Position numbers and translations under genes: made by a program. The notes beneath the pieces are model-generated. The model was not told where the DNA came from, searched no databases, and saw only the letters and a list, made by a program, of their open reading frames with translations. DNA of 46,696 nt. It comes from Acidobacteriota bacterium (GTDB lineage: Bacteria; Acidobacteriota; Vicinamibacteria; Vicinamibacterales; Fen-181). Positions 7,257 to 42,937 of this stretch are shown piece by piece (position 1 is the first letter of the stretch; each line of letters opens with the position of its first letter). The DNA is taken from NCBI GenBank assembly GCA_017883185.1, contig JADGOB010000015.1, positions 1 to 46,696 on the forward strand, given 5' to 3'.

Positions 7257-7342
7257 AGAAATCTTTCGGCCACGTGAGCATGCGCGCCGGTATGCTGTCC
7301 GCGCACGCTGAAACGAACAGGCACAGAATTTCTGGAGGCACG

Positions 7343-8727: not shown

Positions 8728-8772
8728 CGAGACGTGTGCTGGGGTCCAAACGCATATCGTCACATCCGCGCC

Positions 8773-10139
<1,367 letters not shown>

Positions 10140-10143
<4 letters not shown>

Positions 10144-20485: not shown

Positions 20486-20493
<8 letters not shown>
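19939..20493 (+). CDS. amzA: Archaemetzincin-type zinc metalloprotease, 184 aa
   Basis: The full archaemetzincin signature is present: HELGHTFGLLHCPLPTCVM (His130, Glu131, His134, His140, Cys141, Cys146, Met-turn at 148) and a downstream CHDC pair (Cys165, Cys168) for the second zinc. Start GTG 19939 follows AGAGGAG at 19921-19927. There is no signal peptide, so it acts in the cytoplasm. The length is close to that of known archaemetzincins. It lies between a heme sensor kinase and the NtrC regulator whose start it overlaps by eight bases, an uncommon setting; a role in turnover of a heme-pathway or signalling protein is conceivable but unproven. Confidence 0.93.
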
Positions 20494-21874
<1,381 letters not shown>

Positions 21875-25766: not shown

Positions 25767-26474
25767 ATGCAAGCCGTTCTCGAGACGCTCCAGAACATCG
25801 GCATCTTCATCGTGTTCCTCGCCGCGCGGTTCGCGGTGCTGCTGGTCGTACTGGCAGTCCTGACCGTGGTGTTCCTTGCCGGCCTCGCGGTCGTTCGCCT
25901 CGCTGAGCGGGCGCGCCGGCACGCCCTCGGCCTGACCCGTGTCGATGGGTTGATGTGGCGCGCCGGCGTCTACTTCTCCCCAGGGCATTCCTGGCTACAG
26001 GCCCGCGAAGGCGGCACGCTGCGCGTCGGCCTCGATGACCTCGCCCAGCACGTACTCGCCCGCATCACCGAAGTGATGCTGCCCGAGCCCGGGCAAATGG
26101 TGCGAGCGGGTGACCCGGTGACGGTCATCAGGTGCGGCAAGCGGCGCGCGGCGATCCCGGCGCCGGTGACGGGCCGCGTCGTGGCCATCAACCGCCGGGT
26201 CGTCAGCAGCCCCGCACGGCTGCACAACGACCCGTACTCCCGCGGCTGGCTCTACGCAATCCAGCCCGAGGATTCCAGCTATGCCCGGTTGCCGTACGGC
26301 AACGACTCCCGCACATGGTTTTCGCGCGACGCCATCCGGTTGTCCCAGTTCTTCGAGCACCAACTCGGGATGGCGGCGGCCGATGGTGGCGAACTCGTGG
26401 CCCCCGGGCCGTTGCTGCTGACCGAGTCGCAGTGGGCCGAGATGACGCAGACCTTCCTGCAGGCGCCAAAGTAA
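25767..26474 (+). CDS. Second membrane-anchored GcvH-like protein, 235 aa
   Basis: A long N-terminal hydrophobic segment (about 10-43) precedes a GcvH-like domain (PGHSWLQAREGG, LRVGLDDLAQHVLARI, PAPVTGRVVAIN, GWLYAIQP). At the aligned lipoyl position there is Lys125, but in the setting RCGKRR rather than the usual ESVK, so lipoylation is doubtful. It resembles the 24677 protein in layout and probably arose by duplication with strong divergence. ATG 25767 follows AGGAGAGGGAGTGAGCC. It ends the operon. Confidence 0.83.
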   Translation: MQAVLETLQNIGIFIVFLAARFAVLLVVLAVLTVVFLAGLAVVRLAERARRHALGLTRVDGLMWRAGVYFSPGHSWLQAREGGTLRVGLDDLAQHVLARITEVMLPEPGQMVRAGDPVTVIRCGKRRAAIPAPVTGRVVAINRRVVSSPARLHNDPYSRGWLYAIQPEDSSYARLPYGNDSRTWFSRDAIRLSQFFEHQLGMAAADGGELVAPGPLLLTESQWAEMTQTFLQAPK

Positions 26475-26804
26475 GAGTCGTCGGCAGCTCACGTCTCCAG
26501 CCGCAGGGGGTGCACCACGGTGCACTCCTGTTGTGCGCTGCGGCAGTTCCACATCCCTTCCCCGCCTTCCCATCCCCGGCCCAACCGGACGGCCCCGGCA
26601 AGCACTGGCACTCTCCTGTCGTGATGGTCGAAGCGACAGCCCGTGAAATGCCAGTGACCCCCGACCCTCGTGCCACCGCCGGGAACGGGGTTGCACAAGA
26701 TCGACTGGTCTCCCGTTTTGCACGCAACGTCATACCGGGGGCTTGCGCCATCCGCCCTGACGCCCCATCATCGGCTCCAAGCGAACCGTTGAATGGGAGG
26801 CGGC
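26475..26804. other. 330-base gap with a nested hairpin
   Basis: No credible gene is present. Near its start GTGCAC is repeated as an inverted pair (about 26515-26530). The strongest structure is the nested inverted repeat at 26603-26656. A short frame on the minus strand (26489-26698) overlaps this structure and has no ribosome site or family. Confidence 0.4.
26603..26656. repeat. Nested inverted repeats, possible structured RNA or operator
   Basis: CACTGGCA (26603-26610) pairs with TGCCAGTG (26649-26656), and inside it CTGTCG (26616-26621) pairs with CGACAG (26634-26639). The two perfect stems share an axis, giving an interrupted hairpin. It does not match a riboswitch class known to me. 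Confidence 0.45.
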
Positions 26805-27632
26805 ATGGCGAAGAGAGCGCTCCTCGTTGGTCTCAATCGCTACCCGGATCCGGAGAACACTCTCCGAGGATGTCTCAACGACATCCGGCAAGTCAGTGAC
26901 CTGCTGTGCATGCACTTTGGCTTCGCCGCGGATGGCGAGCTCGAGCTCCTCACTGACGCCAGGGCCACGACCTCGGCGATCGTCAACCGCCTGCACTGGC
27001 TGTTGGAAGGCGCCACGGCGGGTGACGTCCTCGTGTTCCACTACTCGGGCCACGGATCGCAGGTGCGCGATCGTCACGGCGACGAACTCGATGACGGACT
27101 CGACGAGATCATCTGCCCGTACGACCTCGACTGGGACGATCCCTTCACGGACGACGACTTCTATGCTCTCGTGAAGGACCTCCCGGAAGGCGTGAACCTG
27201 ACGGTGGTGCTCGACTGCTGCCATTCCGGAACCGGCCTGCGGGACTTCCCATGTGGCCCACGACCGATTCGCGAGCGATTCGTGCGCCCGCCGTCGGGCA
27301 TCGACCATCGACCTCGCGCAGATCGAGCGGTCAGGCGCTTCGGCAGGCGCGCGAGCGAGCATGGGGCACTCCTGATCGCCGGGTGCCGCGCCAACCAGGT
27401 ATCGGCCGATGCCTACATCGACGGTGACTACCATGGCGCGCTGACGTACTACCTCTGCAAGGCCCTCGGCGAACTCCATTACGCCGCGACCTATCGCAAT
27501 CTGGTCGAGTCGGTGCGCCGGCTGTTGCGGCACAACCAGTTCGAGCAGGTACCGCAGCTCGAAGGTCCTGCGAGGCTGCAGCAGGGCCGGGTCTTCGCGC
27601 CTCAGCTCGAAGCCGTCTCCTTGCTGACCTAG
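26805..27632 (+). CDS. Metacaspase-like cysteine peptidase (C14 family), 275 aa
   Basis: ATG 26805 follows GGGAGGCGGC. The caspase-fold dyad is visible: His83 in FHYSGHGSQ and Cys139 in VVLDCCHSG. MAKRALLVGLNRYPDPENTL with RGCLNDIRQV is the usual N-terminal strand and helix of type I metacaspase p20 domains, and the substrate-pocket Asp region (DGLDEIICPYDLDW) is present. Metacaspases cut after Arg or Lys, often calcium-dependent. There is no signal peptide or extra domain, so it acts in the cytoplasm. Its end overlaps the end of the VWFA gene on the other strand. Target unknown. Confidence 0.92.
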   Translation: MAKRALLVGLNRYPDPENTLRGCLNDIRQVSDLLCMHFGFAADGELELLTDARATTSAIVNRLHWLLEGATAGDVLVFHYSGHGSQVRDRHGDELDDGLDEIICPYDLDWDDPFTDDDFYALVKDLPEGVNLTVVLDCCHSGTGLRDFPCGPRPIRERFVRPPSGIDHRPRADRAVRRFGRRASEHGALLIAGCRANQVSADAYIDGDYHGALTYYLCKALGELHYAATYRNLVESVRRLLRHNQFEQVPQLEGPARLQQGRVFAPQLEAVSLLT

Positions 27633-28555
27633 CGGGACGGGCTGCCGGTTCTGGCGCGCTGGTGCGTGTAGCCGTGACGGGACCGGGCCACGTACCGGGG
27701 GTCGCGCATCCTGACGCGAATGCTGTGATACTGGCCGTCAGCGAGGCGCGAGGGCGCGTAGGCGAGGGTGTACTGGTGATTCAGTTCGTAAGCGATCCGC
27801 TCGGTGGCGCCAGCCAGCGCCGAGCTTTCGTGGATGACCTCCGTGTAGCCTCCGGACTGGCTGCTAATCTCGTTGAGCGCTTCGGGTGAGAAGCCGTGGT
27901 TGATCGCCGGTCCACTCGGCGCGTCGATGGCGATGGCGTACACGAAGGCATCGCTCTGATTCACGCGCCGGAGGGCGTCCTGGAGTCTTGCGTCGCTCGC
28001 GGTGTCGGCGCCGTCCGAGACGACGACCAGGCCGCAACGCTGATGCCGGCGCTTCTCGAACATCGGCGCCGCCTTGATGACGGCGTCGTAGATGGCCGTG
28101 CCGCCAAATGGCTTGACCGTGTCAAGGCGTCCCGCCAGGGCGCGCGGCGGAACGGTCCACGGCGCCATGATCAGCTGGGTATGGTTGAACACCATCAGGA
28201 ACGCTTCGTCGCCCTCGTCGAGCAACGACAGCAGGAAGTGATCAATCGCGCTGCGCGCGTCGGCGATGCGCACCCCGAACATGCTGTCGCTCACATCGAC
28301 GGCGATGCCCAGGCTGACCGGCACGCGCTCCCCGGTGAACTGGAGGATCCGCTGCTCGACCCCGTCTTCGAAGACCCCGAAGTCCTCGCGCTGGAGCCCG
28401 GACACCAGGCGGCCGTCGCGGTCCTTCACCGTCACGTCCACCACGACGAGGTCAATAGCAGCGCGGTAGGTCTGACCCGAGGCGTCGGGCTGGAGCACGA
28501 GCGCGAACGTCAGGGTCACGCCAGCCACGATGAGAGTGAGCCACCAAGATCGCAC
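27629..28555 (-). CDS. Exported VWFA-domain protein of the acidobacterial type, 308 aa
   Basis: Start is GTG 28555 on the minus strand. A signal peptide (about 1-28) is followed by the segment VVDVTVKDRDGRLVSGL and LQREDFGVFEDGVEQRI, which is the recurrent opening of the VWFA-related family common in Acidobacteriota. The metal-ion-dependent adhesion motif is DVSDSM (with the later Thr and Asp: FGGTAIYD, VSDGADTAS). The family is presumed to mediate protein contacts outside the cell. It is useful as a taxonomic marker. A TACACT hexamer just upstream of the GTG could be a -10 box. Confidence 0.9.
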   Translation of the reverse strand: MRSWWLTLIVAGVTLTFALVLQPDASGQTYRAAIDLVVVDVTVKDRDGRLVSGLQREDFGVFEDGVEQRILQFTGERVPVSLGIAVDVSDSMFGVRIADARSAIDHFLLSLLDEGDEAFLMVFNHTQLIMAPWTVPPRALAGRLDTVKPFGGTAIYDAVIKAAPMFEKRRHQRCGLVVVSDGADTASDARLQDALRRVNQSDAFVYAIAIDAPSGPAINHGFSPEALNEISSQSGGYTEVIHESSALAGATERIAYELNHQYTLAYAPSRLADGQYHSIRVRMRDPRYVARSRHGYTHQRARTGSPSR

Positions 28556-29936: not shown

Positions 29937-32633
29937 CTAGAATTTCACGATGTAGGACACGCTCAACACGTTCACCGCGTAGTTGAACGGTTGCTCGTTG
30001 GTCGGCAAGACGCCGCTGAGCGATCCGAACTGCCTGCCCTCGTACGCCCAGTCGGCCGATTTCATGCGCAGGTAGGCATAGCCCACACGCACCGACTGGG
30101 TCGTGCCGATCGCGTATCGGCCATTCAGGCGCAGTTCGACCGTGTCGGTGGAAACCGTCGGCAGCGGCGTGGCGGGGATGAACCAGGCCGCGATGAGTGT
30201 GGGGACGGCCCCCGGACCGTCGAAGATGTTGTTGGCCCAATTCCCGCCGCTCACGTTGTTATCCCAGCGGGCCCGGGTCAACACGAAATCGCCCGTCAGG
30301 TCCAGGTTGCCGGCCTTCTTTCTCAATCCGAACCCCAGCGTATTCACCTCGTCGAGCATGTTCGCGGACCAGTTCAGGCACGGGTCCAGCTTGTTGTTGT
30401 TGTTCCGCTGCTGCAACGTCGCGTACCCATCGCAGCTGTTTCCGGAAAGACCGACCACTCCAGGTTGGCCGTTGGTCAGGCTGCTGGCGTTGCTGTTGGC
30501 CGTATACGAATTGCCCGCGGTCATGGATCGCTGGGTCTCGTAGGTGTAGAACAGCGTGGCGCTCAGATCCTCGGCCAGCGCGTAACTTCCATCGACGTGC
30601 ACAGCCCAGCCCTTGGCGCTCTGCAAGCCATAGGTCGAGTTGGGGTAGATGTCGTTGTTGAGATCCAGCCCGGCCTGCAACGAGAGTTGCTCGGTTGTCT
30701 GCCAGTCGATCAGGGTGCGGACCTTGTGACGATTCCGATCGGCCACGTAGTCGCGTCGCATGCCCGGCAGCTCGCTGATTCTGTTGTTGTTCGCGTACCA
30801 CAGGTTGGCCAAGGCGTTGTTGCTCGGGAAAAACAGGTTCATGTCGCCCGTCGTGAGCGCGTAGCCAAGCGCCGGCCCCCATCCGCTCCAGCCGTTCGCC
30901 GTCATAAACGAGAGCGCCGTCACGCCCGCCGAGGCCCCCACGGGGCTCACGTTCGCGTACGGCACCAGCGCCAGAAACGCATTCTCGTTGTAGTTCGGCG
31001 CGCTGCGCATGGAATACGCATAACCAACTCTGGCAGTGACCCGCTCGCCGGCGTGCGCTCGCCAGTCGGCGCGCAGCGTATGTTCGTTGGTGGTGGGCAC
31101 ATCCACACAGGCGATCCAGGTACCGGTGCAGGACCGGTCGATCTTCTCGAACTGGTAGCTCCCCTTGATCCACTGTCCCTTCGCCAGCGCATAGTCGGCG
31201 TCGAGATTGACCTGATTGACCCTCCTGCTGTACGGTCGATTGGCGTTCGCGTTCTGTGCAAGTATGGCACCGTAGGGATTATTCGGGCCGGCTGGGAACT
31301 GGATGCTTGGGCTTGCCGCTTCGCCGGCGTCAGCGTATTGGTAGATGCGGACGGGTGTACGGTTGTCGCGGTCGTCGAATTTGTACGCCGCGATGAGGCT
31401 CAGCGACTTCGCCGGCCTGGCCGTCAGCTTCACGTTGAATGCGGTCGTCACCACAAGGCCGTTCAACGAAGTCACGGGCACGACGACCGTCGTGGCATCG
31501 GTGACGAAGGCGTCGTTCTGCGCGTTGCGCGCGTACGATCCGGTGGCGACCAGTTTCGTGGTGGACGAGAGGTTGATGCCGCCCGTCACGCTGAACTGAT
31601 TGAACTGGTTGCCAGGCGTGCTGCTGATGGTATTGAGCGTGCCGGTTCCGGTCGGGCCAGTCGCCCAGTTCTGCCACGACATGAACGGGACGTTGTTCTT
31701 GAAGAACGAGCCGTAGTACCCGGCCTGCGCGAAGCTTTTCTTGCCCTTGAAGTTCAGGCTCACATTAATCTGATCGGTATCGGTGTTGATCAAATCCGGG
31801 ATGACGGTTGAGATGTCGCCCCCAGTGCTTCGAGACACCGTCCCCATCGGCTTCATCCCGTCCTTGTGTTCGGGCCGGACGCTCGCATCGAATCCCCATC
31901 GCTCGTTGAAGATGAGGTTGACACCCGCGTCAAACCTGGTGCGTGTCGTGAACAGATCAACGGTGTGGAACGTGGGCAGGTCGGCGTCGGCTGCGGCGTA
32001 GACTTGGGCCAACTGAGTCGCGTTCGGCGTGAGCAGCGCTCCCATGGTGGGCGAGTTGGTGGCCGTGCTGATGTACGAGGCGCCACCAATCGTCTTGACC
32101 AGGCCTCTCGCGCTCACCACGTTGACGGCGGTGTTGCCGCCGCTGCTTCCTGCCACGGTCGGCACCTGCCATGTGGCGGGCAAGGTGAGGACATTGGTCC
32201 CGGCGCCGCTGTACGGTGTCTGGTAACTGTCCGATCGGTTCTTCCGCAGTTCGTCGTAGCCGAAGGTGAAACGGAACCTGCCCTGCACGCCGACCTGGGC
32301 CGACAAGCTGCGCGTCTCCAGGCCGAGATCGGTACCCTTGATACGCCAGCGCAACCCACTGGCGCCGTCGTAGGAGGGGCCGCCGCGCAGGTCGAGGTTG
32401 CCGACGACGAAGATGCCTTTGTTCTGCAGTCCGTTGTACTCGCCGGCCTTGTACGAACCCTGGCTGACGTCACCGACTCCCACCTCGACCGTGCCGGTCG
32501 GCTTTGGCGTGGGTTTCTGGGTGCTTTGTGCCTCGGCGCTCCCCGCGCAGGCCGCCAGCGCCATCGCGATCAGCCCGCCGCGCACAACCGCCACCGACGC
32601 CCTGACGGTCAACGTGCTCGCATTCGTAATCAT
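29937..32633 (-). CDS. mtrB: MtrB/PioB-family outer-membrane beta-barrel of an electron conduit, 898 aa
   Basis: The N-terminal region (about 1-36) is a signal peptide ending SAEAQS. The rest is made of alternating amphipathic strands with Asn/Tyr/Gly-rich turns, ending in an aromatic residue (SVSYIVKF), as outer-membrane barrels do. The segment VEVGVGDVSQGSYKAGEY with FVVGNLDLRGG and WRIKGTDLG is typical of the decaheme-associated MtrB/PioB family. In Shewanella and Rhodopseudomonas the barrel surrounds a decaheme cytochrome to carry electrons through the outer membrane. It lies 24 bases after the decaheme gene. It is longer than Shewanella MtrB (about 700 residues), suggesting long outer loops. 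Confidence 0.92.
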   Translation of the reverse strand: MITNASTLTVRASVAVVRGGLIAMALAACAGSAEAQSTQKPTPKPTGTVEVGVGDVSQGSYKAGEYNGLQNKGIFVVGNLDLRGGPSYDGASGLRWRIKGTDLGLETRSLSAQVGVQGRFRFTFGYDELRKNRSDSYQTPYSGAGTNVLTLPATWQVPTVAGSSGGNTAVNVVSARGLVKTIGGASYISTATNSPTMGALLTPNATQLAQVYAAADADLPTFHTVDLFTTRTRFDAGVNLIFNERWGFDASVRPEHKDGMKPMGTVSRSTGGDISTVIPDLINTDTDQINVSLNFKGKKSFAQAGYYGSFFKNNVPFMSWQNWATGPTGTGTLNTISSTPGNQFNQFSVTGGINLSSTTKLVATGSYARNAQNDAFVTDATTVVVPVTSLNGLVVTTAFNVKLTARPAKSLSLIAAYKFDDRDNRTPVRIYQYADAGEAASPSIQFPAGPNNPYGAILAQNANANRPYSRRVNQVNLDADYALAKGQWIKGSYQFEKIDRSCTGTWIACVDVPTTNEHTLRADWRAHAGERVTARVGYAYSMRSAPNYNENAFLALVPYANVSPVGASAGVTALSFMTANGWSGWGPALGYALTTGDMNLFFPSNNALANLWYANNNRISELPGMRRDYVADRNRHKVRTLIDWQTTEQLSLQAGLDLNNDIYPNSTYGLQSAKGWAVHVDGSYALAEDLSATLFYTYETQRSMTAGNSYTANSNASSLTNGQPGVVGLSGNSCDGYATLQQRNNNNKLDPCLNWSANMLDEVNTLGFGLRKKAGNLDLTGDFVLTRARWDNNVSGGNWANNIFDGPGAVPTLIAAWFIPATPLPTVSTDTVELRLNGRYAIGTTQSVRVGYAYLRMKSADWAYEGRQFGSLSGVLPTNEQPFNYAVNVLSVSYIVKF

Positions 32634-32657: not shown

Positions 32658-33638
32658 TCAGCGCTGGAACTTCGCGCCGGCCGGGTGATTCGAACCATGG
32701 ACCAGCACATGGCAGTTCAGGCAGGCACGACCGCCCAATTGGGCACGCGGGCCGGCCGCTCCCGACTGCTGGGTGCCATTGATGGTTGTCACGTTCCCGC
32801 CCGCCAGATTGGCGCCACTATTGATTTGCGCGCCATGATCCCCGCTGTGACACTCCTGGCAGAGGAACGGGACACGCGTCTTCAGGAGCGGCGCATTGCT
32901 CGAGCCGTGAGGCGAGTGGCAGTTGGTGCAATTGTCCGTGACGGGAGCGTGTTCCCAGAGGAAAGGGCCGCGCTTCTCCGCATGGCAGATGTAGCAGGTC
33001 TCATTGACCGAAGTTTTGACGAGCATCGTCGGACCGGCCGACCCGTGCGGGTTGTGACAGTCCGAACACGCCATCTTGGCCGTGCTCGCGAGGCTGGTCG
33101 CCGTCATCGGGTGGGTCGAGATGCGACGGGCCTGGGCGCGCTGTTCCTTGTGGCAGGTATAGCAGACCTCGGCCTGGGTCGCCTTGCTCAGCACTTTCTG
33201 ATCGGTCGCATGGATATTGTGACAGTCGGTGCAGGCCACGTCCCGGCTTTCGTGCTGGCTGCCGGTCCAGTGCGTGCGGAGGCCCGATTCGTGACAGGAG
33301 AGACACATGCGGTTGCGCTGGGCCACCGGTGACTTCAACGGGCCCTTGTACACCACCGCCACGGGATTGCTCGACACGGCGACATGGTCAGGGCTCGCGC
33401 CGTGGCACGATTCGCACTGGTGCTGGGCGAAGGGCGTGCGTGCATCACTCTTCACCGCGTGGGGCGTCTGCAGCATGATGTTGGCCGGTGGCATGTTGTG
33501 ACACCCGAGGCAGGTTCGCTCGCCGCGCGCGGCATAGGCGGCCTGGGGCGCCTGCCCGCCGTCGGCGGCCCGGCCACTGGCTGCGCCCAGCAGAACGGCG
33601 AGGCCGCACAACAACACGACGCTCAGTTTGCGGCTCAT
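32658..33638 (-). CDS. mtrA: Decaheme c-type cytochrome, MtrA/DmsE family, 326 aa
   Basis: Ten CXXCH sites: CLGCH, CESCH, CLSCH, CTDCH, CYTCH, CSDCH, CYICH, CTNCH, CQECH, CLNCH. A signal peptide (about 1-25, ending GRAAD) exports it. Length and heme number match MtrA (about 333 residues, ten hemes), the wire that sits inside the MtrB barrel. A GGGGGATCAG ribosome site precedes ATG 33638. Its promoter carries site A of the 39-base operator, so the adjacent OmpR-type regulator probably controls it. No outer-surface MtrC/OmcA cytochrome is in the window. Confidence 0.95.
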   Translation of the reverse strand: MSRKLSVVLLCGLAVLLGAASGRAADGGQAPQAAYAARGERTCLGCHNMPPANIMLQTPHAVKSDARTPFAQHQCESCHGASPDHVAVSSNPVAVVYKGPLKSPVAQRNRMCLSCHESGLRTHWTGSQHESRDVACTDCHNIHATDQKVLSKATQAEVCYTCHKEQRAQARRISTHPMTATSLASTAKMACSDCHNPHGSAGPTMLVKTSVNETCYICHAEKRGPFLWEHAPVTDNCTNCHSPHGSSNAPLLKTRVPFLCQECHSGDHGAQINSGANLAGGNVTTINGTQQSGAAGPRAQLGGRACLNCHVLVHGSNHPAGAKFQR

Positions 33639-33698: not shown

Positions 33699-33704
33699 AC
33701 TATG
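33699..33704 (-). promoter_or_regulatory. -10 box of the mtrAB promoter (CATAGT on the minus strand)
   Basis: CATAGT on the minus strand lies exactly 10 bases after the last operator repeat, the spacing seen in PhoB-type class promoters, and the same spacing occurs at the second operator. The predicted start point near 33692 leaves a 54-base leader before mtrA. Confidence 0.5.
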
Positions 33705-33713
33705 GACACACCA

Positions 33714-33752
33714 GATGAAATGATGGTGAAACTCCGGTGAAGACACCTTCAT
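33714..33752 (-). promoter_or_regulatory. Operator site A: 11-base-spaced direct repeats upstream of mtrA
   Basis: On the minus strand TTCAC (33741-33737), TTCAC (33730-33726) and TTCAT (33719-33715) repeat every 11 bases, preceded by ATGAAG-N3-TCTTCACCGGA. The 39-base site is identical to site B (35977-36015) at 29 positions. Eleven-base direct repeats one step before a -10 box are the hallmark of OmpR/PhoB-type activator sites. It also lies 115 bases upstream of the regulator gene itself, so autoregulation is possible. Confidence 0.75.
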
Positions 33753-33777
33753 CGTGGGAACCGGCTCCCGGCGGCGA

Positions 33778-33807
33778 TTGACTTCGCAGGCGCCAGACGA
33801 CCATACT
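33778..33807 (+). promoter_or_regulatory. Sigma-70-type promoter of the OmpR/kinase pair
   Basis: TTGACT (33778-33783) and CATACT (33802-33807) are separated by 18 bases; start near 33814, 53 bases before ATG 33867. Match to consensus is five of six and four of six. Confidence 0.45.
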
Positions 33808-33866
33808 CCTCGTTGGGTTTCCACTCCTCCAACTTCACTGACTCTCTCCAGGCGGAGATTGCACCA

Positions 33867-34562
33867 ATGCGCGTGCTGGTCGTCGAAGACGAACACCGGA
33901 TGGCGCTGCACGTTGCTCGTGCACTGGAAGAGGATTCGTTTGCGGTCGATGTCGCGTATGACGGCGAGCAGGGGCTTGCCTACGCCCTTGCGCACGACTA
34001 CGACGCCATCGTGCTCGACCTGATGCTCCCCAAGCTCGACGGCATGGCGGTGTGTCGCCGCCTCCGAGATGCCGGGAAGAGGGTTCCGGTGCTGATGCTG
34101 TCAGCCAGAGATCTTGTGGAAGACCGCGTCGGTGGGCTGAATGCGGGAGCGGACGATTATCTGGTCAAGCCGTTCGCCATGCAGGAACTGATGGCGCGAT
34201 TGCGCGCGCTGATGCGCCGGCAGGCCGACGATCCGCGGTCAACCCTCAAGGTCGCGGACCTCGAACTGGATCCCCTGACGCGGCGCGCGCGCCGGGGCAC
34301 GCGCCAGATCATCCTCACGGCGAAGGAATTCGCCGTATTGGAGTACCTGATGCGGCGGCCTTCCATCGTACACACGCGCACCATGATCGCGGAGCACGTG
34401 TGGAATTTCGTCTTCGATCACGCGAGCAACGTGGTCGACGTCTACATCAAGCACCTGCGCGACAAGATCGACGACAAACAGGATCAGGTCAGGCCCAGCT
34501 TCATCCGCTCGGTCCGAGGGGCCGGCTATGTTCTCAGCGATCCGAACGAGGATCAGGCGTAG
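33867..34562 (+). CDS. OmpR/PhoB-family response regulator, 231 aa
   Basis: ATG 33867 opens directly on the receiver domain (MRVLVVEDE), with Asp51 in IVLDLMLP as phosphoacceptor and Lys near 100 (YLVKPF). The C-terminal winged helix is clear (LTAKEFAVLEYLMRRPSIVH, then VDVYIKHLRDKI, IRSVRGAGYVL). It overlaps the kinase gene by 35 bases. It sits between two target-like operators at 33714 and 35977, which makes it the prime candidate regulator of both cytochrome operons. Confidence 0.95.
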   Translation: MRVLVVEDEHRMALHVARALEEDSFAVDVAYDGEQGLAYALAHDYDAIVLDLMLPKLDGMAVCRRLRDAGKRVPVLMLSARDLVEDRVGGLNAGADDYLVKPFAMQELMARLRALMRRQADDPRSTLKVADLELDPLTRRARRGTRQIILTAKEFAVLEYLMRRPSIVHTRTMIAEHVWNFVFDHASNVVDVYIKHLRDKIDDKQDQVRPSFIRSVRGAGYVLSDPNEDQA

Positions 34563-35943
34563 CAGTCTCCCCGCCCGTCTCACCTTCTGGTACGTGCTGA
34601 CGCTTGGCGCCAGCCTGGTGCTCTTCTCCATCTTCGTCTACGCCGTGCGGGCAAACGCGCTCTATAGCGAACTGGATGCAGGCCTGGCGTTGCGCGGACA
34701 TCAACTGCTCGACGAGCTGCGGCCCGCCCTCCTGGGTCTTGATGTGGCCTCGGATCTGACCGCCAGCGGACGCCTCAGGAATGTGGCGGCGATCGTGCTG
34801 GAGGCGCCCGACCGGCTGCTCTTCCGCTCGCCCGCCTTTCCGGCTCTCGACTGGGCCGGCGAACGCATTCTCGGGGCGGCCGCCCGCGAGACAACCCCGA
34901 TTGTCACGGTGCACGATTCCGCCGGCGCTGCCCTGCACGTGCTCACCGTCGGCGTGGATCGGCCCGGAGCCGAGGCGCTCCGTCTCCAGGTGGCCGCCCC
35001 CACTGCACCGGTGCGGCGAGAACTGGCGCAGGAGGCCATCGGGTTGCTGCTGGGCATTGTGCTGGTCCTGTCGGTGGCCGGCGTTGGCAGCACCATCACG
35101 TCGCGCCGCGCCCTTGCGCCTGTCGATGAAATCGTCGCCCGGGTCCGGCGCATCCAGGCGCAGCGGCTGAACGAGCGGCTCGACGTGCAAGCCGACAGCG
35201 ACGAGTTGATCCGGCTGGTCGTGACCCTCAATGAGATGCTCGATCGGATCGAATCGTCGGTGCACGCCGCCCGGCGGTTCGCCGGGGATTCCTCGCACGA
35301 GTTGCAGACGCCGCTTGCCGCGATGCGGGCGGCCGTCGAAGCGTGCCTTGCCGGCGACAGGCCGACCGCCGACTATCGGACGATGGCGAACGAGATCCTG
35401 GCCGAGTTGACGCGGATGTCGATGCTCATCCGCGACTTGCGGCTGCTCGCGCTGGCGGACGCGGGGTATCTGATTACCAGCCCCGACGCGGTGGACCTGG
35501 CCGCGCTGACTATCGAGTGCTGCGAAGTGGCGCGGGCGATCGCGGAAGACAAGCACATCAATGTCGAGGTCGCGATCGACGCGCGGCCAATCGTTCAGGG
35601 CAGCGCGCTCCACTTGCGCCGCGTGTTGCTGAACCTCACCGAGAACGCCATCAAGTACTCGCCGCCGGGCTCGGTCGTCGAGGTGTCGGTCGGCCTCGAT
35701 CACGGGGAAGCCATTGCCGTCGTGCGCGATCATGGCTGCGGCATCCCGGCCGCCGACCTACCGCACATCTTCCAGCCGTTCTATCGAGCCGATCCGGCGC
35801 GCGCGCGCGACACCGGGGGCAGCGGCCTCGGGCTGGCGATTGCCGACCAGGTCGCCAGAGCCCATGGCGGGCGGATCGAGGTCGTCAGCCAGTTGGGTGA
35901 CGGGACCACCTTCACCGTCCGACTTCCCGCAACCTCCCGCTGA
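34528..35943 (+). CDS. Sensor histidine kinase, partner of the OmpR-type regulator, 471 aa
   Basis: ATG 34528 lies within the regulator gene and follows GAGGGGCCGGCT. Helix 1 (about 18-40) and helix 2 (about 170-193) enclose a periplasmic domain of about 130 residues without Cys or heme motifs. HAMP, then HisKA with SSHELQTPLAAM, and an ATPase domain (NLTENAIKYSPPG, DHGCGIP, GGSGLGLAIADQV) complete it. The layout is that of QseC/CusS-type kinases. What it senses cannot be read; its gene position predicts control of extracellular electron transfer. Confidence 0.94.
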   Translation: MFSAIRTRIRRSSLPARLTFWYVLTLGASLVLFSIFVYAVRANALYSELDAGLALRGHQLLDELRPALLGLDVASDLTASGRLRNVAAIVLEAPDRLLFRSPAFPALDWAGERILGAAARETTPIVTVHDSAGAALHVLTVGVDRPGAEALRLQVAAPTAPVRRELAQEAIGLLLGIVLVLSVAGVGSTITSRRALAPVDEIVARVRRIQAQRLNERLDVQADSDELIRLVVTLNEMLDRIESSVHAARRFAGDSSHELQTPLAAMRAAVEACLAGDRPTADYRTMANEILAELTRMSMLIRDLRLLALADAGYLITSPDAVDLAALTIECCEVARAIAEDKHINVEVAIDARPIVQGSALHLRRVLLNLTENAIKYSPPGSVVEVSVGLDHGEAIAVVRDHGCGIPAADLPHIFQPFYRADPARARDTGGSGLGLAIADQVARAHGGRIEVVSQLGDGTTFTVRLPATSR

Positions 35944-35976
35944 TTACGCTGCTGATCAGGCCTCCCCGTCCTTTCC

Positions 35977-36015
35977 ATGAAGACTTCTTCACCGGACTTT
36001 CATGGACACGTCATC
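35977..36015 (+). promoter_or_regulatory. Operator site B: 11-base-spaced direct repeats upstream of the Qrc/ACIII-like operon
   Basis: TTCAC (35988-35992), TTCAT (35999-36003) and GTCAT (36010-36014) repeat every 11 bases, preceded by ATGAAG-N3-TCTTCACCGGA, as at site A. The last repeat is followed after 10 bases by TATCGT. The frame beginning at ATG 35977 therefore looks like operator DNA, not the start of the cytochrome. Confidence 0.75.
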
Positions 36016-36024
36016 CACGCGCCG

Positions 36025-36030
36025 TATCGT
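36025..36030 (+). promoter_or_regulatory. -10 box (TATCGT) of the Qrc/ACIII-like operon
   Basis: TATCGT lies 10 bases after the last site-B repeat, matching the spacing at mtrA. Transcription would begin at or next to the GTG at 36037, giving a leaderless or near-leaderless message. Confidence 0.45.
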
Positions 36031-36036
36031 AGCAAT

Positions 36037-36483
36037 GTGAATCGCGCGCTGCTCTTCGCCCTTCCGGTCGTCGTGCTGGTCGGCGCGAGCCTGTTCAGTC
36101 GATCGCCTTTCCCCGTCGCTCAGCACATCCCCATCGCGGCGGTGCCCGACGCGGTGGCACAGCGAGGGCGGCTCGTCTACGACCGGTACGGGTGTGCATT
36201 GTGCCACGGCTCTGAGGGGAAGGGCGGATTCGCAAACCAGAACGCCGAAACCGACGGCAAGGTGCCGGGCGTCACCCGCGTCGCCGAAGGCTACACCGCG
36301 AGCGAATTGAAGCGACTGATCCTGACGGGCAAGTCGGTCATTGGCAAGGCCAGCGCCGCCGGACCGCGCCCACCGTATCGGATGCCCGGGTGGCAGGATC
36401 GGATGACCGGGCAGGATGCAGAAGACGTCGTGCGATATCTCATGAGCTTGAACCCGAAGTCGGCTGGGGAGAAGTGGCGGTAA
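36037..36483 (+). CDS. Monoheme c-type cytochrome, 148 aa
   Basis: GTG 36037 is chosen because it begins a proper signal peptide (NRALLFALPVVVLVGASLF) and because the upstream ATG at 35977 lies inside operator site B. The single heme site is CALCH (after GRLVYDRYG), with a likely Met ligand in PYRMPGW and a C-terminal helix AEDVVRYLMSL, a normal class I cytochrome c fold. It would be a small periplasmic or anchored electron carrier for the complex encoded downstream, like ActE of alternative complex III. Confidence 0.88.
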   Translation: MNRALLFALPVVVLVGASLFSRSPFPVAQHIPIAAVPDAVAQRGRLVYDRYGCALCHGSEGKGGFANQNAETDGKVPGVTRVAEGYTASELKRLILTGKSVIGKASAAGPRPPYRMPGWQDRMTGQDAEDVVRYLMSLNPKSAGEKWR

Positions 36484-36905: not shown

Positions 36906-37442
36906 ATGTCACCCGACGCGCCCGACACCGAACGCCCCCCGGCGAGCCCCCGGACGACCCGGCGTCAGTGGTGGATCTTTGCCGCCCTGACGCCGGCCGT
37001 CGCTGTTGGGTGGCTGCTTGTCATGCCGTCCGCTCCGGTGGCGCAGCCAGCCGTCTTCAATCACGCGCGCCATAGCGCTCTGGCCTGTGTCGCCTGCCAT
37101 CGAGGCGTCGAATCGCGGGCACGAGCCACCCTGCCTGTCGTCTCCGACTGTGCGAAGTGCCACGCGACCGCTCCCCCCGGCATCTCCGAAGACCAGTGGA
37201 AGTCGTTCAGCGGTCCGCAGGGCTTCGGCTGGGTCCAGGTCACACACGTGCCCGACCATGTCAACTTCTCCCACCGACGCCACGTGGCGTCGGGCAGACT
37301 CGCGTGCGTGTCCTGTCACGCCGACGTCGGTCAGCGGACCACACCGCCTGGAACGGCGCCGATACGGGTTGACATGAAGGCCTGCCTGTCGTGTCACCGG
37401 CAGGAAGGCATCACCGAGGACTGCGCAGCGTGTCACCGATGA
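36906..37442 (+). CDS. Membrane-anchored pentaheme cytochrome (ActA/QrcA-like), 178 aa
   Basis: One N-terminal helix (about 22-42, WWIFAALTPAVAVGWLLV) is followed by five heme sites: CVACH, CAKCH, CVSCH, CLSCH, CAACH. Segments VFNHARHSALAC and VNFSHRRHVASGRLAC have the His pattern of c7/c3 folds. A membrane-bound penta- or hexaheme cytochrome beside a molybdopterin-family protein, an Fe-S protein and an NrfD protein is the arrangement of ActA in alternative complex III and QrcA in Qrc. Its stop overlaps the next start (ATGA). Confidence 0.9.
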   Translation: MSPDAPDTERPPASPRTTRRQWWIFAALTPAVAVGWLLVMPSAPVAQPAVFNHARHSALACVACHRGVESRARATLPVVSDCAKCHATAPPGISEDQWKSFSGPQGFGWVQVTHVPDHVNFSHRRHVASGRLACVSCHADVGQRTTPPGTAPIRVDMKACLSCHRQEGITEDCAACHR

Positions 37443-39673
37443 GCGACATTCTGACCAGACGGGACTTCCTCTTCATTGGCGGCGCCACCGTGGCCGGTGT
37501 CACGCTCGGCGAGGCCGGACGGCGGCTGCTCGCGCGCGCCGACGCGCGTCAGGGGGCGCTGCACGTCACGGGCCAGCAGCGCTTTGTGACGACGGTGTGC
37601 CGCGAGTGCCCGGCCGCCTGCGGCGTTCGTGTCCGGCTCATCGACGAGGTGCCCGTCAAACTCGAAGGCAATCCGCTGTGCCCCTTCGGGCGGGGCCGGC
37701 TGTGCGCGAAGGGCCAGGCGGCCATCGAGGGGTACTTCGATCCCGATCGACTGGTCGGACCCGCCCGCCGCACGGGCAAGCGTGGCGAGCACCGGTGGGA
37801 ACCGATCACGTGGGACGCCGCCATCGCCGAACTCGCCTCCCACGTGACGGCCGCGGCGAGCCAGCCCGCCTCGCAGACCCTGGCATTCGCCGCCGAGGAA
37901 CACGGGCCCCTGGCAAGCGCCTGGGCGCGATTCTGGGAAGCCGCCGGCGCGAAGCCTGTCTGGATGCACGCCGCCACCCCGGCGAGACTGCGTCGACGAT
38001 TCGCGGCGCTCACCGGCGTCGAAGCCGACCCGCAGTTCGATCTCGAACACGCCACCCACGTTGTGTCGTTCGGGGCGCCGATCGCCGAGGACTGGCTGTC
38101 GCCTGTCTGGGCGCAGCGCGCCTACGGCCGATTCCGCCGCAGCCCGTCGCGCACCCGAGGCCGCCTCGTGCAGATTGATGCGCACCGGTCCATCACGGCG
38201 CGCAAAGCCGACGAGTGGCTCGCCGTGTCGCCCGAGCAGCAGGTCACCCTCGCCTACGGTCTGGCGTCGGGCATCCTGCGCGAGAATCGATCCGACCGGA
38301 CGTTTCTCGATGCGTTCGGCGGCAACCAGGCAGCGTTCGAACGCGAGGTGGTCGACACCTACCCGCCCGACGAGGTCGCGACCGCCACCGGTGTCCCGGT
38401 CGTCACTGTGCTCCGGCTCGCGCGTGATCTGGCAGCCAGCCCACGGCCCCTCGTCTTGGTGAACGCCGACGCGCCGGCTGGACTGATCGACGCCGTATTC
38501 GCCTTGAACACGCTGCTCGGGGCGCTGGACCGCGAAGGCGGCGTCGTTGCGTCACCGGCCCCGCCAGCCGAAGAACCCAGCGACGGTGTGGCCGTGCTCG
38601 GCGAGATGGTCGCCGGTACGCGCCAGCCCCGGCTGATCGCGTTGCGGGACGCATCCGCGCTACGAAGCCTGTCGGCGCCGGCCGGCTACAAGGCCGCGAT
38701 CGACAAGGCGGAGTTCATCGTCAGCTTCTCGCCGTACCTGGACGAAACCGCCGACGTGGCGGACCTCCTGCTGCCTGGGCCCACTCCCCTCGAGAGCTGG
38801 CACGCCGTCACGCCCCCGTCAGTGGTGCGCGCGGAGTGTCTGGCGCTGGCCAGGCCGGCCGTCGGGGCACGGCTGGACACGCGCGAGAGCTTGACCGTGC
38901 TCCGAAGCGTCGCGACAAAAGCGGGCGGCGCGATCGCGGACGCCTGCTCGTGGACCTCGTCCGAGAGCATCGCCACAGCTGAAATGGAGCGCCTCTATGC
39001 GGCTCGCCGCGGAGGTCCCTACAGCGACGCGCACGAGACGACCTGGCTCAGCGAACTCGAGCGTGGCGGATGGTGGGTGTCCGCGACGGCGACCAAGGGT
39101 GCGTTCGCGCAAGCGGTGCTCGAAGCCGGAGGCTGGGACGATCCGTTCTTCGCCCCGGATGGCATCCGCGAGGCTCTGAAGGCGCGAGGCGGCGTGTCCT
39201 GGCCCGCCGCCCGTCTGACGCTGGCCTCCGGGACGGCACCGGGGCGGGCCACGGCCGACTCTTTGAATCAGACCCTCGTTGGCGCCGATGACCAATTCCC
39301 TCTCCGGCTGATCACGTTTACGCCTGCGACCGTGGCGCTGCACGGAGGCGAAAACAACCCGTCGCTGTTCGAGTTGCTTGGACAGCCGGAAGGGCAACCC
39401 TGGCGGGTGTGGGCCGAATTGAACCCGGATACGGCCGGGGAATACGGCATCAGCAGCGGATCCGAGATCCGCCTGACCTCCGCGTCCGGCGGCTCGCTCG
39501 ACGCAGTGGCGCTTGTGGTTGAAGGCATGACTCACGGAGCAGTGGCCGTGGCGTTTGTGCCCGCCCTTCCGGCCGGTGGCCGATGGGCGCGGCTCGTGCA
39601 CGCGGATGTGCGATCGCTGATGGGCGGAGACGGTCGTCGTGATCGATTCGCCGTCCGCATGGCGAAGGCGTAG
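37439..39673 (+). CDS. Molybdopterin-oxidoreductase-family subunit (ActB/QrcB-like), 744 aa
   Basis: ATG 37439 opens a twin-arginine signal (TRRDFLFIGGATVAG). An N-terminal [4Fe-4S] site is complete (CRECPAAC, later LCPFGRGRLCAKGQ), followed by DPDRLVGPARR and ITWDAAIAELA, all common to the family. At 744 residues it is of moderate length. A plain Cys, Ser or SeCys ligand for molybdenum could not be identified by eye, and the setting (pentaheme anchor, separate Fe-S protein, NrfD) matches QrcB/ActB, which have lost the cofactor. If molybdenum is bound, a tetrathionate- or polysulfide-reductase-like enzyme is the alternative. Confidence 0.85.
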   Translation: MSDILTRRDFLFIGGATVAGVTLGEAGRRLLARADARQGALHVTGQQRFVTTVCRECPAACGVRVRLIDEVPVKLEGNPLCPFGRGRLCAKGQAAIEGYFDPDRLVGPARRTGKRGEHRWEPITWDAAIAELASHVTAAASQPASQTLAFAAEEHGPLASAWARFWEAAGAKPVWMHAATPARLRRRFAALTGVEADPQFDLEHATHVVSFGAPIAEDWLSPVWAQRAYGRFRRSPSRTRGRLVQIDAHRSITARKADEWLAVSPEQQVTLAYGLASGILRENRSDRTFLDAFGGNQAAFEREVVDTYPPDEVATATGVPVVTVLRLARDLAASPRPLVLVNADAPAGLIDAVFALNTLLGALDREGGVVASPAPPAEEPSDGVAVLGEMVAGTRQPRLIALRDASALRSLSAPAGYKAAIDKAEFIVSFSPYLDETADVADLLLPGPTPLESWHAVTPPSVVRAECLALARPAVGARLDTRESLTVLRSVATKAGGAIADACSWTSSESIATAEMERLYAARRGGPYSDAHETTWLSELERGGWWVSATATKGAFAQAVLEAGGWDDPFFAPDGIREALKARGGVSWPAARLTLASGTAPGRATADSLNQTLVGADDQFPLRLITFTPATVALHGGENNPSLFELLGQPEGQPWRVWAELNPDTAGEYGISSGSEIRLTSASGGSLDAVALVVEGMTHGAVAVAFVPALPAGGRWARLVHADVRSLMGGDGRRDRFAVRMAKA

Positions 39674-39697: not shown

Positions 39698-40372
39698 GTG
39701 GCTCGCTGGGGTCTCGTCATCGATCTGGATAGGTGCACGGCGTGTCAGGCCTGCGTGGTGGCCTGCAAGCACGAGAACAATGTGCCGTTTTCAACGCCGG
39801 AGACGTCCGCCCGCGGTCGGTTGATGACCTGGATACAACTGGTTGGTGTGGAGATGCCTGGCGGCACGACCGCCATGATGCCCATGATGTGCCAGCAGTG
39901 CGACCGTCCACCCTGCACGGACGTCTGCCCCACCAGCGCGACCTACCTGAATCCGGAAGGCATTGTCGCCCAGATCTACCCGCGGTGCATCGGGTGCCGG
40001 TACTGCACCAACGCCTGCCCGTACGCCGTCAAGCTCTTCAACTGGACCGCCCCCGAGTGGCCCGAGTCGATGGCGCCCATGCGCAACCCGGACGTGTCGA
40101 TCCGGCCCATGGGCGTCGTGGAGAAGTGCACGTTCTGCCATCACCGCCTGCAACAGGCGCGCGAGGAAGCCCGGGCAGCCGGTCGCGCTCTCGCGGCCGA
40201 AGACTACGTGCCCGCGTGCGTCCAGACGTGTCCCTCGGACGCGATGGTGTTCGGCGATCTCGACGACCCGCACAGCCAGGTGGCCGGTCTCGCCGCGAGC
40301 ACGCGGGCGTTCCGTTGGATGGAGGATCTCGGGACGCGGCCAAAAGTTGTGTATCTACGAGAGGGAGAGTGA
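39698..40372 (+). CDS. Four-cluster [4Fe-4S] subunit (QrcC/DmsB-like), 224 aa
   Basis: GTG 39698 follows TGGAGGACACGC. There is no signal peptide, so it would be co-exported with the Tat-dependent partner. Cys groups: CTACQACVVAC, CQQCDRPPCTDVC, CIGCRYCTNAC, CTFC with ACVQTC. This is the full set for four clusters, as in DmsB, PsrB and QrcC. It links the NrfD subunit to the molybdopterin-type and cytochrome subunits. Confidence 0.94.
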   Translation: MARWGLVIDLDRCTACQACVVACKHENNVPFSTPETSARGRLMTWIQLVGVEMPGGTTAMMPMMCQQCDRPPCTDVCPTSATYLNPEGIVAQIYPRCIGCRYCTNACPYAVKLFNWTAPEWPESMAPMRNPDVSIRPMGVVEKCTFCHHRLQQAREEARAAGRALAAEDYVPACVQTCPSDAMVFGDLDDPHSQVAGLAASTRAFRWMEDLGTRPKVVYLREGE

Positions 40373-40373
40373 C

Positions 40374-41684
40374 ATGGCCCAGCCCGAGATCGAACCCATC
40401 ATCAGCCCTATCCTCTCGGTCGGGCCGAGTTTCAAACGGTGGGCCATGGCGCTCGGCGCGGTCGTGGCGTGGGCGGCCATGGTCTGGGTCTGGCAGCTCT
40501 ACTACGGCCTGGGCGCCACCAACCTCGGCCGGCCGATCTACTGGGGTCTGTACATCACGAATTTCGTCTTCTTCATCGGCGTGTCGCATGCCGGCACCCT
40601 GATCTCGGCGATTCTGCGCATCGTCCACGCCGAGTGGCGGCGGCCGATCACGCGCATGGCCGAGGTGATTACGGTGCTGGTGCTGTTTTTCGGCGTGGGC
40701 AACGTCATTCTGGACCTGGGACGACCCGACCGCGCGCTGAGCGTCATCCTGCACCCGCACTTCCGGTCGCCGTTGCTGTGGGACATCTGCAGCATCTCGG
40801 TCTACCTGGTCTGCAGCACGATCTATCTCTATCTTCCGCTCATTCCGGACATCGCGGTGCTGCGGGACCGCACGTCGGGCTGGCGCCATACGTTCTATCA
40901 CCGATTGGCGATCGGCTGGATCGGCTCGCCCGCTCAATGGCATCGGCTGGAGCGAGCGATCGGGATCATGGCCATCGGGGTCATTCCGGTGGCCGTCTCA
41001 GTGCACACGGTGGTGTCGTGGGTGTTCGCGATGACGATTCAACCGATGTGGCACTCGTCGATCTTCGGCCCCTACTTCGTCGTCGGCGCGATCTTCTCGG
41101 GCATAGCCGCGATCATCACGGCCATGGTGATCGTCAGGAAAGTGTACGGTCTGGAGGCGTACCTCAAGCCCGTGCACTTCAACAACCTCGGCATCCTGCT
41201 CCTCGTCATGACGTGCCTGTGGTTCTACTTCACCTTCGCGGAGCACCTGACCGCGTGGTACGCGCAGGAGCCCAGAGAATTGTCGGTGTTCGACGCCAAG
41301 CTCTACGGACGATTCGCCCCGCTCTTCTGGACGATGATCGCCTGCTGTTTCGTCATTCCGTTTACGATCCTCGCCAACCCGCGGACGCGGACGATTACCG
41401 GAACGCTCGTCGCGTCGATCGCCATCAACATCGGCATGTGGATCGAGCGCTTCACCATCGTCGTGCCCTCGCTGTCGAATCCGAGGGCTCCCGTGCACAC
41501 GTTCATCTACTGGCCCAGTTGGGTCGAGTGGTCGCTGATGGCCGGGTGTTTCGCGGCGTTTACGTTGCTCTACATGGGCTTCACGAAACTGTTTCCGATC
41601 ATTTCGATCTGGGAGCTGGACGAGGAGCCGGCGGCGGAGGCGGCGCCGGCGGCCCGACCCGCCGCAACGCTGGCGGAGGCGTGA
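40374..41684 (+). CDS. NrfD/PsrC/ActC-type quinone-binding membrane subunit, 436 aa
   Basis: ATG 40374 follows GAGAGGGAGAGTGAC. About ten membrane helices are visible, with the family's LGRPIYWGLYITNFVFFIGV, ILDLGRPDRAL and AEHLTAWY landmarks and a late WIERFTIVVPSL segment seen in ActC/ActF and QrcD. It should bind menaquinol and possibly move protons. The C-terminus is a cytoplasmic Ala/Pro/Glu tail. The next gene begins in the stop codon (TGATG). Confidence 0.94.
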   Translation: MAQPEIEPIISPILSVGPSFKRWAMALGAVVAWAAMVWVWQLYYGLGATNLGRPIYWGLYITNFVFFIGVSHAGTLISAILRIVHAEWRRPITRMAEVITVLVLFFGVGNVILDLGRPDRALSVILHPHFRSPLLWDICSISVYLVCSTIYLYLPLIPDIAVLRDRTSGWRHTFYHRLAIGWIGSPAQWHRLERAIGIMAIGVIPVAVSVHTVVSWVFAMTIQPMWHSSIFGPYFVVGAIFSGIAAIITAMVIVRKVYGLEAYLKPVHFNNLGILLLVMTCLWFYFTFAEHLTAWYAQEPRELSVFDAKLYGRFAPLFWTMIACCFVIPFTILANPRTRTITGTLVASIAINIGMWIERFTIVVPSLSNPRAPVHTFIYWPSWVEWSLMAGCFAAFTLLYMGFTKLFPIISIWELDEEPAAEAAPAARPAATLAEA

Positions 41685-42937
41685 TGGAACGCAGGGCCAT
41701 GTGCACACGCGTCGGAGGGTGGCTGATGCTTCTCGGCCTGGGCACGGGCCTGGCCATCACCGTCATCTCGGCACAGACACCCGGATCGGTGGCCCTGACC
41801 GTCGCACTGCCCGATGAACCGACTGCAGGCGCGAGACTCTTCGTCCAGAAGGGCTGTGTGCGGTGCCACGCGCTCGGCGGCGACGAGGTTGGCATGGGCC
41901 CGGACCTCGGCCGCATCCATTTCCCCGGCACCGCCCTCGATCTGGCCGGTTCGTTCTGGAACCATGCGCCGGTGATGGCCGAGAAGATGCGCGAATCGAA
42001 GATCCAGCAGCCGACGCTCGACAGCGGAGAGATGGCGGATCTGCTGGCCTTCCTCACGGCCTACCGTTACTACGTGGCGCAGGTCGGCGGTCCGGCCAAC
42101 CCGGTCGTCGGCAAGAGCCTTTTCGAACAGAAGGGCTGTTCTCTTTGCCACGGCGAAGCCGCCACGTTCGACAAGAAAGGCCCGAGCCTCACCAAGTACC
42201 GCGGGCGAATGTCGGCCATCGTGCTCGCGCAGACCATGTGGAATCACGGCTCGGAGATGGCGCAGGTCATGCGCGCGAGCGGCGTCCCCTGGCCGACGTT
42301 TGCCGGCGGCGAGATGGGCGATCTGCTTGCGTACCTGCAGATCGGCAGCGGTGGAACATCCACGGACCGCGTGTACTTCGAGCCGGGCAGCCCGCGCCGG
42401 GGACAGGGTCTGTTTACGAGCAAGGGTTGCCTCCAATGCCACGCGATCGCCGGGGTCGGTGGCCATCCCGGGCCCGATCTGGGGGACCGGGGCAGAGATT
42501 TGCTCGGGTCTGTGGCGTCAATTGCGGGCCTGATGTGGAATCACAGCCGGCCGATGGAAGCCGAGTCACGCCGCCGAGGCCTGGCGCGTGTGACGTTCTC
42601 GGGCCAGGAGATGGCGGATATTATCGCGTACCTGTACTTCGTCAACTACGCGAATGTGCGGGCCGTGCCCGCGCACGGCGCGCAGATATTCAGCCAGAAG
42701 TGCGCGGTGTGTCATTCGGCAGGAGGCGGGCCGCGTGTCGGTCCAGACCTGACGGCCATCCAGCAACTCGACGACCCGATCGCGCTCTTCGCAGCGATGT
42801 GGAATCACTCCTCCCGCATGGAGCAGGAACTGCGGCGGCGCGGCCTGAGCTGGCCACGGCTGGCACAGGGCGAGGCGGCCGACCTCGCCGCATTTCTCGT
42901 TGCCAGGCGCCCTGCCTCTCAGCCGGCGGTCCGCTGA
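41684..42937 (+). CDS. Tetraheme cytochrome made of four tandem class I domains, 417 aa
   Basis: A signal or anchor helix (about 10-30) precedes four repeats of about 95 residues, each with a heme site and a later WNHxxxM motif: CVRCH/WNHAPVM, CSLCH/WNHGSEM, CLQCH/WNHSRPM and CAVCH/WNHSSRM. The gap from heme Cys to Trp is 33-36 residues in all four. Met in the motif is the natural distal ligand. The repeats then carry a GEMADLLAFL-type helix. The protein likely arose by two rounds of duplication and forms a linear wire at the end of the operon, taking electrons from the complex. Confidence 0.9.
   Translation: MERRAMCTRVGGWLMLLGLGTGLAITVISAQTPGSVALTVALPDEPTAGARLFVQKGCVRCHALGGDEVGMGPDLGRIHFPGTALDLAGSFWNHAPVMAEKMRESKIQQPTLDSGEMADLLAFLTAYRYYVAQVGGPANPVVGKSLFEQKGCSLCHGEAATFDKKGPSLTKYRGRMSAIVLAQTMWNHGSEMAQVMRASGVPWPTFAGGEMGDLLAYLQIGSGGTSTDRVYFEPGSPRRGQGLFTSKGCLQCHAIAGVGGHPGPDLGDRGRDLLGSVASIAGLMWNHSRPMEAESRRRGLARVTFSGQEMADIIAYLYFVNYANVRAVPAHGAQIFSQKCAVCHSAGGGPRVGPDLTAIQQLDDPIALFAAMWNHSSRMEQELRRRGLSWPRLAQGEAADLAAFLVARRPASQPAVR

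Follow-up and report, generated by a model that had tools for sequence, protein, structure and literature searches.

A predicted shared operator of an OmpR-type two-component system links an MtrAB conduit to a cytochrome/Qrc-like operon in an acidobacterial genome

Introduction

How an outer-membrane electron conduit and a quinone-linked cytochrome complex could come under a common control is the question raised by a 46,696-nucleotide stretch of DNA from a member of the Acidobacteriota (contig JADGOB010000015.1, assembly GCA_017883185.1), referred to here in its full length as the window. The genes of an OmpR-type response regulator and a sensor histidine kinase lie between two similar 39-base-pair (bp) sites, A and B, which a first-pass annotation of the sequence took for operators of that two-component system. 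Gene annotation agrees with the arrangement it described, in which the sites flank the regulator and kinase genes and are aimed at a decahaem/porin operon (mtrAB) on one side and at a seven-gene cytochrome operon on the other. The central claim, that a shared OmpR-type operator joins mtrAB to the cytochrome/Qrc-like operon, is supported by the conservation of the sites, by their movement with the operons and by their co-occurrence with the regulator. On the strength of these sequence comparisons, A and B are very probably operator-promoters of the adjacent OmpR/CusR-type regulator, predicted to co-activate the two operons.

Architecture of the operators

Direct comparison of A and B bears out the reported 29 identities in 39 positions. 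The three TTCAC-type repeats described for them do recur with an exact 11-bp spacing, at site positions 12, 23 and 34; the units themselves read TTCA(C/T), apart from the third unit of B, GTCA. The -10-like hexamer is likewise present after both sites, beginning 9 rather than 10 bases past the 39-mer, and a fourth half-site, inverted and reading TGAA at positions 2-5, can be added to the first-pass annotation, from which it was absent. An alignment of 15 copies from seven genomes, all of one taxonomic order, defines the conserved promoter unit as TGAA-N6-TTCA-N7-TTCA-N7-TTCA-N11-CATAGT. In the aligned promoters, positions 12, 23 and 34 hold TTCA-type units, which form direct half-sites of the OmpR/PhoB type with a period of about 11 bp, and inverted half-sites with 6-4-6 geometry, TGAA-N6-TT(C/A)A, are found in 11/15 promoters (TTAA variant, 2/15; one-base shift, 2/15). 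The second and last bases of the hexamer (A50 and T54) are invariant in all 15 promoters, none of which carries a TTGACA-like hexamer at the -35 position.

The open frame of cytc1, the mono-haem cytochrome gene that heads the cytochrome operon, reaches back to an ATG at 35977. This start was rejected in favour of GTG 36037 because the conserved start codon stands at site position 61 or 62, as it does in 6/6 genomes, where it coincides with the predicted transcription start; with this start, operator B lies outside the gene. On the same grounds, the messenger RNA of the cytochrome operon is predicted to be leaderless.

The likeness of A to B is weak evidence taken alone. When every part of the window is compared with every other, 31 clusters emerge of pairs that agree at 29/39 positions or more, many of them paralogous coding repeats (0-4 in composition-matched surrogates). 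With pairs of this kind so frequent, no significance was drawn from A and B by themselves; what carries the case is promoter position together with conservation in other genomes.

Conservation across genomes

Because the sites recovered by the motif model (R1) had also served to train it, sites were scored with their own genome left out. Held-out sites reached 43.5-70.5 bits, and the background maximum was 9.2-15.9 in 6 Mb of composition-matched sequence (9.2 in the runs that scored A and B; Table 1). An earlier version gave scores of 43.3 and 52.2 for the pair in the window, where no other place exceeded 2.3. No site in the window's genome other than A and B reaches significance; weak matches elsewhere in it were set aside, and C77, which alone was inspected, lies over coding frames.

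Searching for the motif ahead of mtrA and Qrc homologues in relatives, a check laid down in the first-pass annotation, recovered sites in related genomes before the same target genes. A phylum-wide MtrA search identified a relative in G229, 67% identical, with sites before its mtrA and before its cytc1/Qrc operon, and a search with the QrcC-like subunit in named genomes returned 29 loci, six of which (L058-L063) carry sites; the loci of a deeper Qrc-like clade among these 29 have no convincing site and no regulator. G229 and G305 have sites before mtrA as well as before the cytc1/Qrc operon; sites also precede cytc1 in G327 and G384, and two mtrA-type genes, cytc1 and a porin gene in G383. All 15 aligned copies stand before mtrA, a cytochrome/Qrc-like operon or accessory redox genes, and the site blocks retain 26-31/40 identities (35/40 in the G229 pair) versus about 6-17/40 in most flanking blocks.

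The operators stay with their operons despite a rearranged gene order. In the window, the regulator gene and mtrAB run away from each other, and G229 and G305 have the order regulator, kinase, site, mtrA, site, cytc1, Qrc. A single overlapping operator lies between the divergent mtrA and Qrc-like genes of G385 (L059:6700-6830); it is a long near-perfect palindrome with three half-sites each way, CATAGT at both ends and a shared central TGAA-N6-TTCA.

Co-occurrence with the regulator

Defining a strong motif as one with E below 1e-10 and the regulator by at least 64% identity, a strong motif was found in 7/162 genomes of the order (G000, G229, G305, G327, G383, G384 and G385) and the regulator in nine, namely these seven together with G306 and G397. 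The motif is thus present in 7/9 regulator-bearing genomes versus 0/153 without the regulator (Fisher's exact p = 7e-11). Among 396 genomes of the phylum, strong matches were confined to G000 and G229, as was the regulator. The same clade of Qrc-like genes occurs in 9/9 regulator genomes and in two more genomes with no regulator match (74% and 85% complete), and neither regulator nor motif occurs in about 54 genomes whose Qrc-like subunits are more distant.

The regulator-kinase pair adjoins a site in G000, G229, G305, G383 and G385. The regulator gene of G327 shares a contig with its target but is about 20 kb away, which shows that the two need not be closely linked. In the census of the order, genus-mates of the window's genome have neither regulator nor motif; the module is therefore patchy and may move as a unit, and the genomes are for that reason not fully independent.

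Proposed mechanism

The phosphorylated regulator would most likely load four subunits on each operator, two of them as an inverted pair in 6-4-6 geometry on TGAA-N6-TTCA, the other two head to tail on the 11-bp TTCA repeats, down to about -24. Since there is no TTGACA-like -35 element, the regulator would most likely stand in for it and recruit RNA polymerase to the fixed CATAGT -10 element (type II activation). Activation is the more likely sign of control because the last repeat, with +1 at position 61, ends near -24 and a -35 hexamer is lacking. By the same switch, mtrAB and the seven-gene cytochrome/Qrc-like operon would be transcribed in opposite directions, so that an inner-membrane quinone module, periplasmic cytochromes and an outer-membrane conduit would be made together. 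We infer that the regulator binds, is phosphorylated and activates transcription, and that a specific signal exists. Autoregulation is not indicated, as no site stands ahead of the regulator gene.

Comparison with known regulators

The closest layout is that of AgrR from Cupriavidus metallidurans, a CzcR/CopR-like member of the OmpR family with a footprinted AgrR box; at most of the promoters investigated, AgrR works by type II activation (PMC7380067). Both systems combine a 6-4-6 inverted pair with in-phase direct repeats (PMC7380067), but the AgrR half-site is ATTACA rather than (C/T)TTCA(C/T), its targets are metal-resistance genes, and in the operators described here two more direct repeats, with an 11-bp period, are conserved towards the promoter. 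Mycobacterium tuberculosis PhoP binds tandem 7-bp repeats with a 4-bp spacer (11-bp period) and a TCAC core, an arrangement extendable to three or four subunits (PMC4832192); period and core are shared with the sites of the window. Its base-contacting residues Asn212, Val213 and Tyr217 are conserved in the window's regulator, and Glu215 is replaced by Asp. Unlike PhoP, however, the regulator is closer overall to PcoR/CusR, and its site adds the inverted half-site.

The CusR and CopR boxes of Escherichia coli and Pseudomonas likewise have palindromic half-sites with similar spacing, in divergent intergenic operators (PMC11195947), and heavy-metal models are the best matches of both regulator (TIGR01387, 243 bits, cut-off 279) and kinase (TIGR01386, heavy-metal sensor kinase, 233 bits, cut-off 293). 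Both nevertheless fall below these curated cut-offs, and the targets here belong to electron transfer rather than metal efflux. The best solved DNA-binding domain for the regulator is that of PcoR (2jzy). The regulator's recognition helix, SNVVDVY(I/V)KHLR(D/G)K, is kept in the motif-bearing genomes and differs from that of paralogues. No conserved cluster of Cys, His or Met, as a metal or haem ligand motif, was found in the sensor region of the aligned kinases, in which the G384 row is a mis-picked frame. Overall, the regulon is of a familiar OmpR/PhoB-family type, with a target set that is apparently undescribed: a literature search, from which subscription journals were largely absent, found no published description of this regulon or of the control of extracellular electron transfer in uncultured Acidobacteria.

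Alternative explanations

That the resemblance of A and B arose by chance or through a small, functionless duplication would fit the abundance of equally similar pairs in the window, but held-out scoring, conservation in seven genomes, the invariant position of the -10 element and the co-occurrence with the regulator refute it, and its probability is negligible. A more serious proposal is that the operators are real and conserved but read by another, paralogous regulator of the OmpR family whose gene lies elsewhere, so that the adjacent two-component pair is only a neighbour. At least three paralogues with 45-52% identity are encoded in the window's genome, and in G312 a similar site lies before a DUF5916 gene followed by that of a 55% identical regulator, so related regulators may read related sites. 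The strong motif nevertheless accompanies only the regulator clade of at least 64% identity, paralogues at about 50% identity are widespread in genomes without it, and the regulator-kinase pair adjoins a site in the five genomes named above; we hold this proposal to be unlikely. It is very unlikely that the regulator binds A and B to repress or co-repress both operons: the operator covers the -35 region and the computations do not distinguish the sign of control, but the lack of a TTGACA-like -35 element, the fixed spacing to the -10 element and the precedent of AgrR, which has the same layout (PMC7380067), speak for an activator.

Several points weigh against control of both operons by the adjacent regulator through A and B. 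The genomes are draft metagenome-assembled ones throughout, the motif model was trained on sites later found with it, and the identity cut-off of 64% was picked after the matches had been seen. G306 and G397 have the regulator and no strong motif; their contigs with Qrc-like genes start inside the cluster, without its promoter. A site before the regulator's own gene was not found in the genomes examined. Finally, the inverted half-site may have an auxiliary role, because it is shifted by one base in 2/15 promoters and is missing from the weaker sites before TonB-receptor-like genes described below.

Genes around the sites

The coordinates of the operators and of the genes that they flank are given in Table 1. 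An MtrAB conduit is indicated by the decahaem MtrA and the MtrB-type porin, both of which exceed curated cut-offs. The 133-residue cytochrome of the cytochrome operon is mostly 60-71% identical in relatives.

Table 1. Operators, promoter elements and genes of the locus, in window coordinates
Feature	Position	Strand	Details
Operator A, 39 bp, mtrAB operon	33714..33752	minus	29/39 identity to B; held-out score 48.9
Operator A half-sites	TGAA 33748-33751; TTCA 33738-33741; TTCA 33727-33730; TTCA 33716-33719		minus-strand reading
-10-like hexamer CATAGT, mtrA promoter	33699..33704	minus	position and sequence equal the consensus of 15 promoters, 7 genomes
Operator B, 39 bp, cytochrome/Qrc-like operon	35977..36015	plus	29/39 identity to A; held-out score 56.1
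Operator B half-sites	TGAA 35978-35981; TTCA 35988-35991; TTCA 35999-36002; GTCA 36010-36013
-10-like hexamer TATCGT, cytochrome operon	36025..36030	plus	predicted +1 at 36037, GTG start codon
OmpR/PhoB-family response regulator, CusR/CopR-like	33867..34562	plus	Pfam Response_reg and Trans_reg_C; recognition helix SNVVDVYIKHLRDKI
Sensor histidine kinase	34528..35943	plus	HAMP; HisKA with SSHELQTP; HATPase_c
MtrA-type decahaem cytochrome, 10 CXXCH	32658..33638	minus	TIGR03508 DmsE family, 294 bits, cut-off 192
MtrB/PioB outer-membrane porin	29937..32633	minus	PF11854 and TIGR03509 (381 bits, cut-off 240) above cut-off
Mono-haem cytochrome c (cytc1), first gene of operon	36037..36483	plus	PF00034; start from conservation
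Small mono-haem cytochrome, 133 amino acids	36496..36897	plus	weak cytochrome matches; one CXXCH
QrcA-like multihaem cytochrome, 5 CXXCH	36906..37442	plus	NF041781, E 9e-18, 64 bits, equivalog cut-off 180
QrcB-like molybdopterin-oxidoreductase-fold subunit	37391..39673	plus	NF041783, 234 bits, equivalog cut-off 440
QrcC-like iron-sulfur subunit	39698..40372	plus	NF041782, 270 bits, equivalog cut-off 400
NrfD/QrcD-like membrane subunit	40374..41684	plus	PF03916, E 2e-31; open frame reaches 39963; start inferred from translation
Four-domain cytochrome, mono-haem c domains, 4 CXXCH	41684..42937	plus	PF00034, four stretches; start inferred from sequence

The first-pass annotation called the complex Qrc/ACIII-like. 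In alternative complex III (ACIII), the ActB subunit is a fusion of the B and iron-sulfur parts, and two NrfD-type subunits are present. The operon of the window instead has separate QrcB-like and QrcC-like genes and one NrfD-type gene, so that the Qrc-like part of the name stands and the ACIII-like part applies only to the five-haem A subunit. The likeness to QrcABCD lies in the gene order, in which QrcA-, QrcB- and QrcC-type genes are followed by the gene of the only NrfD-type subunit; unlike QrcABCD, the three scored subunits fall below equivalog cut-offs, the A subunit has five CXXCH motifs and the operon contains three extra mono- or multi-domain cytochromes. The description of the complex as quinol-oxidising is not supported: Qrc proper, which the complex resembles in these respects, works as a cytochrome c3:menaquinone reductase (PMC13059093), so electrons may flow in either direction.

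Further sites and other features

In relatives, further sites precede genes for four-domain cytochromes (G229, G383 and G385) and for a mono-haem outer-membrane porin (G383). In G383 and G385, weaker sites that lack the inverted half-site stand before genes for TonB-receptor-like proteins with carboxypeptidase-regulatory domains (L122, L119 and L121, near position 1500; L119, 1050). Behind one site, at L058:5313-6779 (plus strand), a mono-haem CXXCH outer-membrane protein of 488 amino acids has a layout like that of fused cytochrome-porins; it has no family match and was found only in G383 and G384. A related site, at L056:12681-12719 (minus strand), stands before a DUF5916/CBM9 outer-membrane protein gene, which is followed by the gene of a regulator 55% identical to that of the window, and this neighbourhood suggests that related regulators read related sites.

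Elsewhere in the window, the genes at 8734-10143 and 20486-21874 (about 465 amino acids) are apparently paralogous, and the C-terminal part of the latter's product matches RtcR/NtrC-type AAA-HTH models. The neighbouring genes at 7274-8056 and 8053-8727 contain DNA repeated at a 692-base offset, probably a tandem duplication. A caspase-fold peptidase gene (26793-27632), whose product also matches a PADLOC caspase model, is convergent with an acidobacterial VWA-domain gene (27629-28555), and the gene at 25767-26474 encodes a protein with a GcvH-like (lipoyl carrier) domain that scores under the GcvH cut-off.

Significance

It is reasonably probable, if less firmly grounded than the assignment of A and B, that in Acidobacteria an entire transmembrane chain for extracellular electron transfer is switched as a unit by a two-component system dedicated to it, with operators that travel with their operons through rearrangement and a patchy, possibly horizontal, spread, and with a cytochrome operon that is leaderless at +1. 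The placement of the operators, silent on the direction of the electrons, implies in a testable way that one pathway includes both the MtrAB conduit and the Qrc-like complex. A defined operator would also provide a handle for finding the genes of such chains in metagenomes, as well as the signal that turns the chain on.
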